A stretch of 64,000 nt of DNA from Thermodesulfobacteriota bacterium (lineage in GTDB: Bacteria > Desulfobacterota > GWC2-55-46), in assembly GCA_030583865.1 (NCBI GenBank), contig CP129479.1, forward strand, positions 2,194,819-2,258,818, in the 5' to 3' direction. A program made the position numbers and the translations under genes. Positions 32,125-60,850 of this stretch are shown here, piece by piece; the stretch's first letter is position 1, and each line of letters opens with the position of its first letter. The notes below the pieces were generated by a model. That model had not been told where the DNA came from. It ran no database searches and saw nothing but the letters and a program-made list of their open reading frames with translations.

Positions 32125-35100
32125 CAGCCTTCTCCCTTCTGGAGGGTGAAATAGAAGGCGGCCCCCCTGCCCGGCTCGCCCTCGGCCCAGACCCTGCCGC
32201 CGTGCCTCTGGATTATCCTCTGCACCGTAGCGAGTCCTATTCCGGTGCCCGGGAACTCATCGGATGGATGGAGCCTCTGGAAGGGATGGAAGAGCCTGTC
32301 CGCGTGCTTCATGTCAAAGCCCGCCCCGTTGTCCCTGACATGGAGTATCATCCTGCCGTCCTCATGGCCCGTGACTCCCAGCTCTATCCTTGGTGCCGGG
32401 GTCTTCGATGTGAACTTCCACGCGTTCCCCAGAAGGTTCTCAAGAACGAGCTTCAGGAGCTTCTCGTCGCCCCTGGCCTTGAGGCCTTCTTCTATGTGGA
32501 ATGACGCGATCCTCTCGGGCTCGGCCTTCACGAGGTTGCCCGCTATGGACCTGGCAAGGCCGCTCAGGTCCACGCCCTCGTAGGCTATCTCCGCCCTCAT
32601 AACGTACGAAAGGTTAAGGAGGTCGTCGATGAGCTCCCCCATGCGCTTGACGGCCTCCCGTATCCTCATTATCTGGTCCTGGGCGTCCTTGTCGAGCTTC
32701 TCCTTCTGCTTCTTCACGAGGAGCATGCTGAAGCCGTCCACGAGCCTCAAGGGCGAGCGGAGGTCGTGCGCGACCGAATATGTGAAAGTCTCTATCTCCC
32801 TGTTGGCCGCCGAGAGGCCCTCCATCGCCGTCTTGAGCTCCGCCGTCCTCTCCTCCACCCGCTTCTCGAGCTCGATGTTTAATTTCCTGACCTCCTCCTC
32901 GGCCCTCTTTCTTTCGGTTATATCGAGGATTATGCCCGTCATGCGGGTCGGCCTGCCTTCCTTGTCGAGAATGCACTCCGCCTCGGAATGTACTATCCTC
33001 TCCTCGCCGCCGGGCCTCAGTATCCTGTAATCTATGGAGTAGGGCCTGGCCTCGTTAAGGAGCCCCCTCATGGCCTCCTTAACCCTTTCAAGGTCGTCCG
33101 GGTGGACGGCGCTTGTGAAGTCCATCAGGTTCTCAAGCTCACCTTTTCCCCTGCCGGATATGCGGTAGACCTCGTCCGAGATATACAGCATGTCGGTTGT
33201 GACGTCGTGCTCGAAATTTCCGAGGTGGGCGATACGCTGCGCCTCTCGGAGGCTCGCCTCGCTCCGCCGGAGCGCATCCTCCGCGCGCTTGAGGGATGTT
33301 ATGTCGGTCACGACCCCGCACATGGCGTACTTTTTGCCGTCCTTGTCCCTGAGCGTGAACTTTGTAGTAAGGGCGTAATGCAGCCCGTCCGGGAGCGGGA
33401 CCTCGTCTTCGAACTGTATGGGCTCGTCCGCCTCCATCGCCCTCAGGTCGTCTTCATGCAGTTCTTTCGCTACTTCAGGCGGGAATATGTCGAATACGCT
33501 CTTTCCGTAGGCCTCTTCCGGCTCAAGCTCAAGGCTGGAAAGGAAAATCCTGTTCACGAACAAGAACTTTCCATCCATGTCCTGTATAAAGACAGGGTTC
33601 CCCATGCCTTCGAGTATTGCCCTGAGCCTTTTCTCGCTTTCCCTCAAGGCGTCCTCGGCAAGCCTCTTTTCGCTTGTGTCGATTAACCCGGTGATTGAGC
33701 CCCTGTACTCGCCGCCTTTCATCAAAGGCGCCGCCGCGACAGTCACATAGAGCGCCCCTCCGTCTTTTTTCAGATACTCCGAATCGAAGTTCTGGGTTAT
33801 GCCCTGTCTCCTGCGTTCGAGCCTTTCCCTGGCCCTTTCAGACTCAGCCCTGTCCATGAACTCGAAGAGCGGCCTTCCCATCATATCCTGCACCGTGTAT
33901 CCGAGCATCTCCGCCATCCTCGGGTTCACGTAGACGATGTTGTCATTTTCATCCAACGCAATTATCCCTTCCTGCAAGTTCTCTACGAGCGTCCTGTATC
34001 TCAGCTCGCTCTCTTCGAGCGCCCTTTCGACCCGCCTGTGCTCGGTTATATCCTGCACTGTCCCGGACATCCTGGCCGGGTTCCCGCTTTCGTCTTTCAC
34101 TACCTCGGCCTCCTCATGTACTATCCTTTCCGTCCCGTCCGCGCGTATGATCCTGTGCTCATGGGAATAGTGCCCACCATTTTGGAGCGCCTCGCTGACT
34201 TTCCTTTCCAGCGTCTCCCTGTCATCCGGGTGCGCAAAGGACAGGAAACCCTTGTAATCCGGGGCCGGGGCCGAGGTTTCCAGGCCGAATATCCTGTAAG
34301 TCTCCTCAGACCAGGTCGCTGCATCGTTAACAATGTCCCACTCCCAGCCCCCCAGCCGCGCTATCCTCTGGGCGTTCGCGAGGGTCTCGCGCTCTTTCCT
34401 AAGCTCGCTTGTCCTCGTCTCTATGCTCGCGGCCATCGCGTTGAAAGCCCCTGTGAGGGCGCCCATCTCATCCCTGCTACGGACAGGCACCCGAACTCCG
34501 TAGTCCCCGGAAGCGACCGCAGTTGCCCCGGCCATGAGCCTTCGGACCTGGGCGATGACTGCCATTAAAAAATAGAGCACAAGCGCCCCGATAAAAAGCA
34601 ACACGACTATTATCAGGACGATTATGTTCTGCTGAAAGCCGCGGACAGGCTCAAAGACATCAAACGTGTTCACCTCGGTGACGAAGGTCCACCCGAGGGA
34701 GGGCAGGCACATTGAGGCGCCAGCAACCTCGACGCCCCTGTAATCTCGATAAATTTCCGCTATCTCCCTGCCCTCCTCAAGACAGGCCCTGACCGGCGGC
34801 GTATCAACCCGTTGCTTGAGGACCGCATCAGGCGTAAACACGGATTCCGTAATCATGAGCTTGTCCCTGTTCACTATATATATCTCCATTGTTTCCCAGG
34901 GAGGGGGGCTCCATGAGAGCGCGCCGAGCCCCTTTATGAATTCGCCTGTGAAGAGCTCACCGAACCTCTCAAGGTCCATGAAGCCGGTTATTACCCCCAG
35001 GAGCCTGCCGCCGTTGCGCCTGCTGTAGATGGGGGCCGAGAATGCCAGTTCGGGCATGTCGTCAGGGCCTATTACCTCCACCACGGAAAGACCCTTGCTG

Positions 35101-35531
35101 CCCTGCAGAAAAAACTCTTCATGTGAAAAATCCATTCCTTCGAAGCCAGGGAGAGTGGAGGCCAACACTATTCCATCAGGGGCCGTAAGCACGCTTAAGC
35201 GGTACATTTGCCTCAAAACAGGCAGCTTGTGACGGCTTATGTAATCCGAAAGCTCCCGCCCGCCCGCCTCCCTGCCCTTGATGTCCTCAAGGGCGTTCAC
35301 TATGGTGCCGTCAGTGGAGAAGTCCTGTATCCTGTTCCTGCTCATCTCGATATACATGAGCACATAGGCCTGTCGCTCGTCGGCTATACGTTTAAGTGTG
35401 CTGAAAAATTCTTTTCGGAGCTCGTTCCTCTCCTGGATGAATAGCGCGCTTATTGCCATGAATATTGGGACGAGGATGAGGAGAAAGGCTATAAGCACCT
35501 TTTGTATAAGGGTCAGGCCGGTTTTGGACAT
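32124..35531 (-). CDS. Large membrane histidine kinase (Cache-HAMP-4xPAS-HisKA-HATPase)
   Basis: 1135 residues. A first membrane segment (about 10-30), a double-Cache-like periplasmic sensor (35-300), a second membrane segment (305-330), HAMP, four PAS/PAC units (about 395-885, each ending in a DITE- or DITS-like tail), HisKA with His in YSVAHDLRSPLR and an HATPase domain (HVRDNGAGFDM, GTGIGLATVQRII). The HisKA/HATPase type with VRDNGAGF is that of phytochrome-like kinases, which fits its coupled Rcp1-like regulator. A ggagag sequence precedes the ATG. Ligand unknown. Confidence 0.92.
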   Translation of the reverse strand: MSKTGLTLIQKVLIAFLLILVPIFMAISALFIQERNELRKEFFSTLKRIADERQAYVLMYIEMSRNRIQDFSTDGTIVNALEDIKGREAGGRELSDYISRHKLPVLRQMYRLSVLTAPDGIVLASTLPGFEGMDFSHEEFFLQGSKGLSVVEVIGPDDMPELAFSAPIYSRRNGGRLLGVITGFMDLERFGELFTGEFIKGLGALSWSPPPWETMEIYIVNRDKLMITESVFTPDAVLKQRVDTPPVRACLEEGREIAEIYRDYRGVEVAGASMCLPSLGWTFVTEVNTFDVFEPVRGFQQNIIVLIIVVLLFIGALVLYFLMAVIAQVRRLMAGATAVASGDYGVRVPVRSRDEMGALTGAFNAMAASIETRTSELRKERETLANAQRIARLGGWEWDIVNDAATWSEETYRIFGLETSAPAPDYKGFLSFAHPDDRETLERKVSEALQNGGHYSHEHRIIRADGTERIVHEEAEVVKDESGNPARMSGTVQDITEHRRVERALEESELRYRTLVENLQEGIIALDENDNIVYVNPRMAEMLGYTVQDMMGRPLFEFMDRAESERARERLERRRQGITQNFDSEYLKKDGGALYVTVAAAPLMKGGEYRGSITGLIDTSEKRLAEDALRESEKRLRAILEGMGNPVFIQDMDGKFLFVNRIFLSSLELEPEEAYGKSVFDIFPPEVAKELHEDDLRAMEADEPIQFEDEVPLPDGLHYALTTKFTLRDKDGKKYAMCGVVTDITSLKRAEDALRRSEASLREAQRIAHLGNFEHDVTTDMLYISDEVYRISGRGKGELENLMDFTSAVHPDDLERVKEAMRGLLNEARPYSIDYRILRPGGEERIVHSEAECILDKEGRPTRMTGIILDITERKRAEEEVRKLNIELEKRVEERTAELKTAMEGLSAANREIETFTYSVAHDLRSPLRLVDGFSMLLVKKQKEKLDKDAQDQIMRIREAVKRMGELIDDLLNLSYVMRAEIAYEGVDLSGLARSIAGNLVKAEPERIASFHIEEGLKARGDEKLLKLVLENLLGNAWKFTSKTPAPRIELGVTGHEDGRMILHVRDNGAGFDMKHADRLFHPFQRLHPSDEFPGTGIGLATVQRIIQRHGGRVWAEGEPGRGAAFYFTLQKGEG

Positions 35532-57979: not shown

Positions 57980-59053
57980 CTAATCCCTGTAGATCTCGAA
58001 TATTTCGTTGAAGTCCGCGGAAGCGTCCAGAAAGGCCTCGAGCACGCGCGGGTCGAAGTGCCCGGGGCTAGTCCTTGCGTTCCCCTTGCTTATGACCTTC
58101 ACGGCCTCTTCATGGCCCATCGCGTCCTTGTAAGGCCTCTTGCTCCTTAACGCGTCATACTGGTCCACTATCATGACTATCCTGCCCTCGAGCGGGATGT
58201 CCTCGCCCCTGAGCCCGCCGGGGTAGCCGGAACCGTCCCATCGCTCGTGGTGGGTCCTCGCTATCACGGCCGCGGTCTGGATGGAAGGGTAAGGAGAGTC
58301 GAGGAGCATCCTCTCGCCCATGAGAGTGTGCCCCTTCATGGAATCGAACTCCCGGCCGGTGAGCGCCCCCGGCTTGAGGAGGATGACGTCAGGGATGCCC
58401 ACCTTGCCTATGTCGTGCATGGGGCTTGCGAAGGTTATGCTGTCCACGAAGTCCTCGGACGCGCCGAGCACCCTGGCGAGCCTACCGGAGTAGAGCCCTA
58501 TCCTCTTTATGTGCGCCCCGGTGTCGCTGTCCCTGAACTCGGATATCCTCATTATCCGGTGGACGAGCTCCTTGCTCGTCTCTTTTATCATCTGGAGCGC
58601 GTCCGCGAGCTCCGCCGTCCTTTTCCTTACGTCCTCCTCGAGGCGGTGCTTGTAGTTCCTCTCCATCTGGACGAGCCTCGCGTACTTGACGGCCTTCTCT
58701 ACCGCGTGGACGAGGTGCTCGGGCTTGTAGGGCTTTATTATGAAGTCGAAGGCGCCCTTCTTGATGGCGTCCACGACCACGTCTACATCCGCGTAGGCGG
58801 TCATGAAGATGACCGGGACTTCCTTGTTCGTGGTCCGTATCCTGTCGAGGAGGTCGAGCCCCGAGAGCCCCGGCATCTTGATATCAGTGAGGACCGCGTC
58901 CGGCGCACCTCCCCTCAGGGCCTCGATCGACTCGCGCGCGTCCCTGCAGGGGGTTACCTTGAACCCCAGGCCGGAAAGGAGGAGGACCGTGCTCTCCAGC
59001 ACGAAATGGTTGTCATCCGCGACCAGTATGTGAGCGGGACTTTGAGGTGTCAT
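57980..59053 (-). CDS. RpfG-type response regulator (REC-HD-GYP)
   Basis: 357 residues. Receiver domain (about 8-125; VADDNHF, phosphoacceptor Asp in VLTDIKMPGLSG, KPYKPEHL), a short coiled coil and an HD-GYP domain (about 160-335) with HIKRIGLYS, HDIGKVGIPD and HHERWDGSGYPGG. It should degrade c-di-GMP when phosphorylated. The ATG at 59053 gives the normal N terminus. No partner kinase is adjacent. Confidence 0.92.
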   Translation of the reverse strand: MTPQSPAHILVADDNHFVLESTVLLLSGLGFKVTPCRDARESIEALRGGAPDAVLTDIKMPGLSGLDLLDRIRTTNKEVPVIFMTAYADVDVVVDAIKKGAFDFIIKPYKPEHLVHAVEKAVKYARLVQMERNYKHRLEEDVRKRTAELADALQMIKETSKELVHRIMRISEFRDSDTGAHIKRIGLYSGRLARVLGASEDFVDSITFASPMHDIGKVGIPDVILLKPGALTGREFDSMKGHTLMGERMLLDSPYPSIQTAAVIARTHHERWDGSGYPGGLRGEDIPLEGRIVMIVDQYDALRSKRPYKDAMGHEEAVKVISKGNARTSPGHFDPRVLEAFLDASADFNEIFEIYRD

Positions 59054-59261
59054 CTGTCCAGGCCCTTTCCATTCACGCCCCCGGCATTGATTCATGCCCG
59101 AACCGATTACGCGGGGCGCATTCTCGCTACGCCTTGCAGCCGGAACCGCCCCCCTTCTCTTATCGGCGTTTATCGAGCGATATTGAGCTATTAAGCCCGG
59201 CAAGCTTAGGAGTGGAAAGGACAGGCTGAAAGGCGGCTTGAGGACTTCCGCTTAAAAGTCC

Positions 59262-59822
59262 TCATGGCGTTTCGCAGGTATATGCGTATGAGACCTCCTC
59301 GACCCACCCCTTTGCCGCCCCTACCCTGGCTATGAAGCTTACACAGGGCCCGAGCTGGGCACGGTACTCGACCGTGTGCCTGTCCCGGTAGGTCTCGGCG
59401 ATGCCCGGATATTCCTTGAGGAGGTCTTTTTCCGAGAGCTTCCCGAGCTCTTTCAATTCGGAGACCATGACGAGCCGCTTGCCCTCGTTAAAGTAGAGCG
59501 AGTACATCGTCTGCCAGGGGTTGTAGACGAACTTGAGCTCAGGCAGGCCGCCGGGGGCGGAGGGGTCCTCCTCGGCCTGGCGAACGTCGCCGTCGTAAGG
59601 CTTGAAGGGCGCCTCCGGGTGCATCCTCATGGCCTCATCGAGCGTGGTCATTCCGAGCACGAGTGCCCCGGCCTTTTTTCCGTTAGTGAGGAATGACTCG
59701 ATGACGTACTGCGCGGCCTGGGCCTTTTCCGGCTGCCCGGCCAGGGCCCGGAAATCGGTAAAGATGAACATCCAGGCCAATGGAGCTATTGCGGAGCCTA
59801 CAGCCAACTTCCTTAGATTCAT
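59262..59822 (-). CDS. Exported protein of unknown function
   Basis: 186 residues with a signal peptide (cleavage near residue 29) and no domain I recognise. The mature part has a conserved-looking VLGMTTLDEAMRMHPEAPF and two cysteines near the C terminus (C168, C183), which could pair in the periplasm. It lies between two regulators on the same strand, with no tight linkage. Confidence 0.6.
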   Translation of the reverse strand: MNLRKLAVGSAIAPLAWMFIFTDFRALAGQPEKAQAAQYVIESFLTNGKKAGALVLGMTTLDEAMRMHPEAPFKPYDGDVRQAEEDPSAPGGLPELKFVYNPWQTMYSLYFNEGKRLVMVSELKELGKLSEKDLLKEYPGIAETYRDRHTVEYRAQLGPCVSFIARVGAAKGWVEEVSYAYTCETP

Positions 59823-59971: not shown

Positions 59972-60850
59972 TCAACCCTTCCCTGAATTGACGATCTCCC
60001 GGACCCTCAGCCTGATTACGTTTATCGGGGCCGGTTTTCTGAGTAACTTCAAATCCCGTCCCATTATGAACCTGACGCTTTCAGGATCGGCTGAGGCGGT
60101 GATAAAGACGAACCTCGACTTATAGCAAGGGGACACCTCGACGGCCTTCAGGTAGAGCTCTATCCCGTTCATCCCAGGCAGGTCGACGTCGGATACTACC
60201 GCCGCGAACGGGGGGCCGGATTCGATGGCCTTAAGCGCGTCTCGGCCGTTCGTCGCGGTCTCGATAATCCCCTCTCCGGCCAGCACCGCCCCGAGGAGCT
60301 TGAGGTTCATCTCATTGTCCTCAACGAGGAGTATCCTTTCCCTTGCCACCCTCGGCAGCCTCAGGGCCCTCTCCAGAAGCGCATCAAGCCCGGGCCTTCC
60401 GGAAAGGAACTCCCTTATGTGGTCCTTGTGCCCGTTCATTTCCCGTGCGACCGAGCTGAACTCTTCCGGCGACCTTTCCCTGAGGACGTCCATGAAATAA
60501 AGGAAGATGTCGTTGAACTCGGAAAACTCAATGGTTATAATGTGGCCGAGGAGCTCTTCCCTGGAGAGTGTGCCGCTCTCAAGCCCTGAAGAAAGCTCCT
60601 GGAACGGCTTCTCGACCCTCTGCCTGGTCTCCGGGTCGAGGGAGACTACCAGGCCGTCTTCCCGTCCGGAGAGTGCATCTCCGGCGCGGAGTACCAGCTC
60701 ATGGTGCGTCCTCTCTTCATCCGATAGATGCCTGAGGAGGCCCGCGAGCTCGCTATCGTCCTCAAAGGCGGCTGCCGCGGCTGCGTAGACCTTCGAGGCC
60801 GTGTCCTCGACCGATGCGACCCAGTTTATGATCTCTTTTTGATTTTCCAT
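59972..60850 (-). CDS. Ferritin-like domain fused to a receiver domain
   Basis: 292 residues from the ATG at 60850 (MENQKEIINW). Residues 1-150 form a four-helix, rubrerythrin/ferritin-like domain: Glu15, Glu46-x-x-His49 (EERTHHE), Glu108/Glu111 (TIEFSEFND) and His141/His144 (NGHKDH). The fourth-helix ligand pattern departs from the usual ExxH. Residues ~170-292 form a receiver with EDN, Asp in VVSDVDLPGMNG, and LRKP. A metal or oxygen sensing regulator is inferred; no output domain is present. Confidence 0.8.
   Translation of the reverse strand: MENQKEIINWVASVEDTASKVYAAAAAAFEDDSELAGLLRHLSDEERTHHELVLRAGDALSGREDGLVVSLDPETRQRVEKPFQELSSGLESGTLSREELLGHIITIEFSEFNDIFLYFMDVLRERSPEEFSSVAREMNGHKDHIREFLSGRPGLDALLERALRLPRVARERILLVEDNEMNLKLLGAVLAGEGIIETATNGRDALKAIESGPPFAAVVSDVDLPGMNGIELYLKAVEVSPCYKSRFVFITASADPESVRFIMGRDLKLLRKPAPINVIRLRVREIVNSGKG

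Follow-up and report, generated by a model that had tools for sequence, protein, structure and literature searches.

A ferritin-like domain with nearly invariant putative metal ligands fused to a C-terminal receiver: a candidate diiron sensor of an apparently undescribed family

The locus described here raises the question of what a protein that joins a ferritin-like helical domain to a phosphorelay receiver would sense or do, and whether its helical domain is likely to bind metal. The gene lies in a window (the whole stretch of DNA that was analysed, 64,000 nucleotides) of a closed 2.75 Mb genome placed near uncultured 'Deltaproteobacteria' of groundwater and sediment (H5_GWC, GWA2_54_12, GWA2_55_10); the positions of the features are given in Table 1. 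A sequence-only reading of the window had described the product as a helical domain preceding a receiver with all phosphorylation residues, and Pfam, AlphaFold2 and a check of the residues agree with this description. Response_reg (PF00072) matched residues 173-280 with an E-value of 7.3e-11 (42.7 bits against a cut-off of 30.2), and the residue set of the receiver is complete, with the acidic pair Glu177/Asp178, the phospho-acceptor Asp221, Thr251 and Lys272. Rubrerythrin (PF02915) matched residues 13-73, that is, helices A-B only, with an E-value of 1.6e-5 (25.8 bits against a cut-off of 22.8), and at E 0.01 it matched 22 of 58 family members. Hemerythrin (PF01814) gave no match to the window protein at E 1 and matched one of the 58 members (E 2.7e-4). 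The receiver is C-terminal and is not followed by an output domain, and the protein departs from the canonical response regulator order of an N-terminal receiver and a C-terminal output. Pfam likewise found no rubredoxin domain at the C-terminus, the place it takes in classical rubrerythrin and at which the receiver is located here; a classical rubrerythrin is present elsewhere in the same genome (L200). Since the dN/dS values against three same-genus orthologues were about 0.19, 0.18 and 0.23, we take the fusion gene to be real and under purifying selection.

Table 1. Positions in the window of the fusion gene, its domains and putative ligands, and its downstream neighbours.
Feature	Position	Strand	Remarks
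Ferritin-like/receiver fusion gene	59972..60850	(-)	292 aa + stop, ATG at 60850
Ferritin-like domain, residues 1-165	60356..60850	(-)	AlphaFold2, VIA-align, Pfam Rubrerythrin (helices A-B)
Receiver domain (REC), residues 170-290	59981..60343	(-)	Pfam PF00072; best PDB matches are receivers, Z about 20
Putative ligand Glu15, helix A	60806..60808	(-)	E15 in 49/55; Tyr22, seven residues on, in 54/55
Putative ligands Glu46-x-x-His49, helix B	60704..60715	(-)	E46 in 54/55, H49 in 49/55
E108-x-S-E111-x-N113 signature, helix C, two putative carboxylate ligands	60512..60529	(-)	E108 in 55/55, E111 in 52/55, N113 in 52/55
Putative ligand His141, helix D	60428..60430	(-)	H141 in 54/55
Orphan gene, 186 aa, signal-peptide-like start	59262..59822	(-)	downstream, co-directional; no Pfam match
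REC-HD-GYP gene, predicted c-di-GMP phosphodiesterase response regulator	57980..59203	(-)	downstream, co-directional; Response_reg 1.3e-28, HD_5 5.6e-30

The whole window protein was modelled by AlphaFold2 with a pLDDT of 89, and because both Foldseek and VIA-align returned receivers only when given this full-length model, the N-domain was modelled by itself. Structure prediction, the check that the sequence-only reading had proposed for its helical domain, gave a ferritin-like helical bundle (pLDDT 89.9, pTM 0.87, 58 sequences) with predicted helices at residues 4-28, 33-60, 73-92 (a crossover), 97-110/114-126, 128-149 and 156-163; the break predicted in helix C, at 111-113, falls exactly on E111-N113. 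The top VIA-align match of the N-domain was TM1526 (1vjx; Z 13.0, rmsd 2.9, 142 of 149 residues), followed by YciF (2gs4; Z 12.9) and by the N-terminal 180 residues of 3ezu from Geobacter sulfurreducens (Z 11.6, rmsd 2.9, 141 residues). Foldseek also placed 1vjx first and ferritins next, with E-values that were all weak (best 0.053). TM1526, the closest structure, is a putative ferritin-like diiron-carboxylate protein that stands alone, unlike the domain studied here, and the likeness is one of structure alignment. As Z values near 13 between helical bundles are not proof of kinship and may reflect a common arrangement only, the family claim rests on sequence, namely the Pfam match and a profile match to 2fzf (E 3.4e-6). 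The model predicts with good confidence that the N-domain is a four-helix bundle of the ferritin-like superfamily with a crossover connection.

The residues that the sequence-only reading had named as the likely metal site, Glu15, Glu46-x-x-His49, Glu108, Glu111, His141 and His144, are all present in the open reading frame. Their conservation was counted over 76 full-length members of the family or over 55 representatives less than 60% identical to each other, the latter being the basis of the counts in Table 1. Among the representatives, conservation reaches 90% or more in 20 of the 290 columns, those of the N-domain being W10, Y22, L39, L42, E46, E108, E111, N113 and H141; because columns conserved to this degree are so few and yet include E46, E108, E111 and H141, the ligand pattern goes beyond chance. 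The pairing of His141 with His144 held for its first half only: His144 occurs in 7 of the 76 members and was rejected as a ligand, so that only His141 is a likely one. The same reading was right that the fourth helix lacks the usual ExxH. At residue 138, where helix D would carry the Glu of this motif, 68 of the 76 members have I, M, V or L instead, and the second ExxH of the rubrerythrin family, with its bridging Glu, is absent.

The putative site can be compared with that of sulerythrin, in which the metal is bound by E20, E53 (bridge), H56, E92, E126 (bridge) and H129, and in which E95 touches the dioxygen species with Y27 nearby (PMC9589262). From the sulerythrin spacing we infer the ligand assignment of the window protein, which shares E15 with a Tyr at +7, E46xxH49, E108 with E111 at +3, and H141, whereas a counterpart of E126 is absent, so that one bridging carboxylate would be present; nothing else is missing from the ligand set. 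Compared with rubrerythrin and sulerythrin (PF02915) more generally, the window protein has the same ferritin-like bundle and the same order of residues (E, Tyr at +7, ExxH, E with E at +3, helix-D His), but it lacks the helix-D Glu and rubredoxin and has instead the crossover helix 73-92, the break in helix C and the receiver. In alignment, the helix-D His lies 33 residues from E108, as against 32 from the helix-C Glu in genomic rubrerythrin-like proteins. Local profile alignment with these proteins covered helices A-B only, none was obtained with classical rubrerythrins, and global profile alignment set E108 on the helix-C Glu with low confidence (35% probability). The register of E108 and E111 is uncertain, as a Tyr at +7 of E111 could make E111 the canonical helix-C Glu.

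An engineered sulerythrin variant lacks the equivalent bridge. SulE E126A contains 100% high-spin diferrous iron in a fully loaded, hydroxo-bridged site; O2 oxidises it slowly (11.4 per M per s vs. 3.1 for the wild type), and it stabilises a cis-mu-1,2-(hydro)peroxo species (PMC12851003). Since this variant keeps its diiron site, the loss of the helix-D Glu is no argument against such a site in the fusion protein. The sequence-only reading had called metal binding uncertain on account of the fourth helix; the helix-D Glu is indeed absent, but binding is likelier than that reading allowed, because the six-residue set is conserved throughout the family and sulerythrin without the same Glu still forms a diiron site. 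By analogy, H49 and E111 appear to be the counterparts of two sulerythrin positions, which would give a ready conformational switch. The same site could in principle report on metal availability, with reversible binding of Fe(II), Mn(II) or Zn(II) and occupancy, not O2 or redox state, as the signal. Carboxylate/His sets of this kind do bind other metals, sulerythrin as isolated having contained both Fe and Zn (PMC9589262), and the lack of one bridging ligand could weaken binding, but we regard such a sensor as quite unlikely given that all six residues are conserved, including E111, the presumed counterpart of E95, which contacts dioxygen and is not a ligand of the resting metal, and given the oxidase genes in the neighbourhood.

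A one-off fusion or an assembly artefact is ruled out by homologues. The genome itself contains four fusions. Besides the window gene, they are a paralogue at 890 kb whose receiver is intact, one at 1,729 kb whose receiver is degenerate in part, and one at 1,373 kb in which neither half is free of degeneration. The N-domain profile matched 42 of 63 genomes of the class (E 1e-5) and, in the wider phylum, 23 of 395 genomes at E 1e-8, ten of them outside the class, of which three are weak matches to short proteins. In the phylum of a Nitrospirae MAG there were 13 matches in 245 (E 1e-10), about six of them receiver fusions and the rest mainly of a cold-shock type, and the phylum of Ferrimonas gave a single match among 398. 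Many matches (L057-L091) from a scan of genome contigs with an 8-row alignment cover the receiver only. A tail of receiver length, about 120 aa, is found on nearly every strong member, the exceptions being disrupted genes; L052 and L055 are fusion genes broken up by frame breaks. One apparently tail-less member, L190, was rejected as such, its receiver lying downstream in another frame past a disrupted stretch. The fusion had been called unusual, which holds in general and fails within this lineage, where the architecture is a widespread multi-paralogue family. Among open-licence papers, we found none that joined 'rubrerythrin domain' with 'receiver domain' or described a ferritin-like/response regulator fusion. 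The ferritin-like/receiver fusions make up a large family that is apparently undescribed and whose putative metal-ligand residues are nearly invariant.

The same N-domain also occurs in other architectures. In the phylum of the Nitrospirae MAG, a cold-shock-like domain of roughly 70 residues comes after it in L236, L244, L239, L233, L237, L240, L241 and L243; in four of these that were tested, Pfam CSD matched with E-values of 1e-4 to 0.012, under the curated cut-off. The ligand positions are the same in six of the eight, with Gly at the E111 position in the other two. This fusion is a second architecture, possibly directed at nucleic acids. Standalone or differently extended relatives (L234, L235, L238, L242, L141), in which no partner domain was recognisable, also keep the E/ExxH/ExxE/His set, with Asp at the E111 position in L238. 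Because it is kept in most of the cold-shock-fused and standalone relatives, the ligand signature is not tied to the receiver.

In the receiver, 46 of the 55 representatives of the fusion family have D178, 51 have D221, 44 have T251 (6 have Ser at this position) and 52 have K272. Loss of the ligand set goes with loss of receiver residues (55/10/4/7, Fisher p 0.0017, without a tree correction for relatedness), and ten members keep all six ligands with an incomplete receiver set. Both kinds of loss are seen in the paralogue clade of L005, L138, L143 and L195, in which E15, H49 and E111 are gone, D221 is replaced by Glu and T251 by Tyr. As an observation in its own right, the change of the phospho-Asp to Glu in L005 (1498-2346) and its orthologues L138, L143 and L195 is possibly phosphomimetic. 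That L005, a paralogue from the same genome, and its orthologues are still retained in several species after losing their ligands would suit a bundle that is metal-free or only structurally metallated and serves as a dimerisation or docking scaffold to localise the receiver. We consider this improbable for the family, as the ligand set has persisted through deep divergence in the other members, and is retained by most of the cold-shock-fused and standalone relatives too.

The neighbourhood was read from open reading frames picked mechanically as the longest, not from an annotation. Of the two downstream genes in Table 1, the orphan belongs to cluster c2 and adjoins the fusion in 7 loci of its closest clade, and the REC-HD-GYP gene is a conserved neighbour of fusion orthologues. 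Two sister species (G002 and G025) encode, downstream of the fusion and between the orphan and the REC-HD-GYP gene, a large hybrid kinase of the histidine type with Cache, HAMP, PAS, HisKA, HATPase and REC domains, and in G003 the start of a hybrid histidine kinase is found at a contig end. The kinase is absent beside the window gene, and its best match in the same genome is 38% identical and not a clear orthologue. A histidine-kinase-like open reading frame at 33618-35522 (-) of the window (G000 2228436-2230340) shares 34% identity with the hybrid kinase of the sister species over the N-terminal sensor part of the latter. Upstream of the window fusion are a cytochrome b561 gene and an FMN-binding gene (Pfam sub-threshold) and, just beyond the window edge, SCO1 and COX1-3 genes. 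The SCO1, CtaB and COX genes near fusions were confirmed by Pfam. Four separate clades of the family tree have a fusion with a COX1-family gene no more than 12.7 kb away, and in three clades the distance is about 3.2 kb or less; the probability of the latter by chance is 0.002-0.017 (a rough Poisson estimate that varies with the number of clades counted), and most clades are without COX proximity. At L161 5217-5684 and L167 8076-8582, inspection of the sequence by eye pointed to MsrA-like (methionine sulfoxide reductase) genes, which are near fusion genes that also have SCO1/COX genes nearby. In addition, an MCP chemoreceptor gene is located directly upstream of a second fusion paralogue (L149 6754-8928 in G000, L172 8166-10373 in G001), and in L036 and L037 relatives of this MCP are found about 4 kb or less from fusion genes. 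All these gene-neighbour links are associations with the fusion, not proof of a pathway. The suggestion of the sequence-only reading that iron or oxygen state is linked to a phosphorelay is plausible, and the terminal oxidase genes, the hybrid kinase and the REC-HD-GYP context add to its plausibility.

Signal flow through the protein could run in either direction. If the receiver were the input, phosphorylation of Asp221 would switch a catalytic ferritin-like domain (a peroxidase, ferroxidase or oxygenase), as in enzyme-type response regulators. Such a switch would explain the complete receiver residues of most members, the domain is akin to peroxide-reducing rubrerythrins, and the COX and msrA-like neighbours suit stress physiology. 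In enzyme-type response regulators, however, the receiver usually comes first, whereas in the fusion it comes last; the protein carries neither rubredoxin nor another domain that would donate electrons; and in the ten members with six ligands and an incomplete receiver the ferritin-like part would be independent of phosphorylation. We therefore hold this direction to be unlikely. An input role for the ferritin-like domain is favoured because the order of sensor then REC, without an output domain, fits it.

The likeliest role, to which we give about an even chance, is that of a diiron sensor of O2, peroxide or redox state whose target is the C-terminal receiver, which in turn would signal in trans; here we infer iron as the metal, O2, peroxide or redox state as the signal, the direction of signalling and the partners. 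The fusion would be a cytoplasmic signalling protein made of an input part and a transfer part, in which the N-terminal domain would bind an erythrin-type dinuclear iron via E15, E46, H49, E108, E111 and H141, the second bridging Glu being lacking. When the diferrous site reacts with O2 or peroxide, or when it gives up its iron, the helical bundle would change, and this change would pass through the linker (149-170) to the C-terminal receiver and alter its acceptance or retention of the phosphoryl group, or its binding of a partner. As it has no further output domain, the receiver would act in trans: it might carry phosphoryl groups in the manner of CheY or Spo0F, drain them as a phosphate sink, or serve as a docking module. 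In the clade of the window gene, the circuit would likely include the hybrid histidine kinase (in sister species; absent here) and the REC-HD-GYP phosphodiesterase, near the terminal oxidase genes. The joint loss of ligands and receiver residues speaks for this role; the uncertain register of E108 and E111, the weak Foldseek E-values, the lack of the hybrid kinase beside the window gene, the want of COX proximity in most clades and the slow reaction of SulE E126A with O2 speak against it. More tentatively, at somewhat less than an even chance, the N-domain may represent an undescribed ferritin-like sensory domain family (E..Y / ExxH / ExSExN / lone His), a natural counterpart of 'second-bridge-less' sulerythrin whose diiron site would be tuned so that a peroxo or oxidised state persists as the signal, and which serves as an interchangeable input for receivers and cold-shock-like domains or stands alone.

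The ODP protein has a flavodiiron/beta-lactamase-type fold and is a separate protein, not a receiver fusion. In Treponema denticola it is a diiron O2/Fe(II) sensor for the chemotaxis phosphorelay that is said, in a title cited in PMC10653840, to act by stabilising an iron-peroxy species, and it resembles the window protein in being a diiron protein (putative here) that serves a phosphorelay. Hemerythrin diiron bundles fused to signalling domains exert O2 or redox control in VcBhr-DGC, in Ferrovum Bhr-HD-GYP and in the DcrH chemoreceptor (PMC8846402, PMC13401364). These sensors share with the fusion protein a non-haem diiron (putative here) helical bundle joined to a signalling domain, but they belong to another fold family with other ligands, and their outputs are GGDEF, HD-GYP or MCP; a hemerythrin-receiver fusion is not mentioned in the review PMC9388753. 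The GGDEF protein of G. sulfurreducens (3ezu) also has a helical bundle before a signalling domain, GGDEF and not a receiver. The fusion protein would work like the diiron helical-bundle sensors but is not a hemerythrin, and it is without the helix-D ExxH and the rubredoxin of classical rubrerythrin.

Diiron sensing of O2 or redox state in bacteria is known mainly from hemerythrin domains and ODP. The missing bridging ligand is the one removed in an engineered sulerythrin variant with characterised chemistry, so the idea is directly testable. If it is true, the direct coupling of a rubrerythrin-type site to a phosphorelay receiver would be a solution separate from these. The family is abundant in an uncultured lineage of deltaproteobacterial type, with several paralogues per genome, and recurs near terminal oxidase genes.
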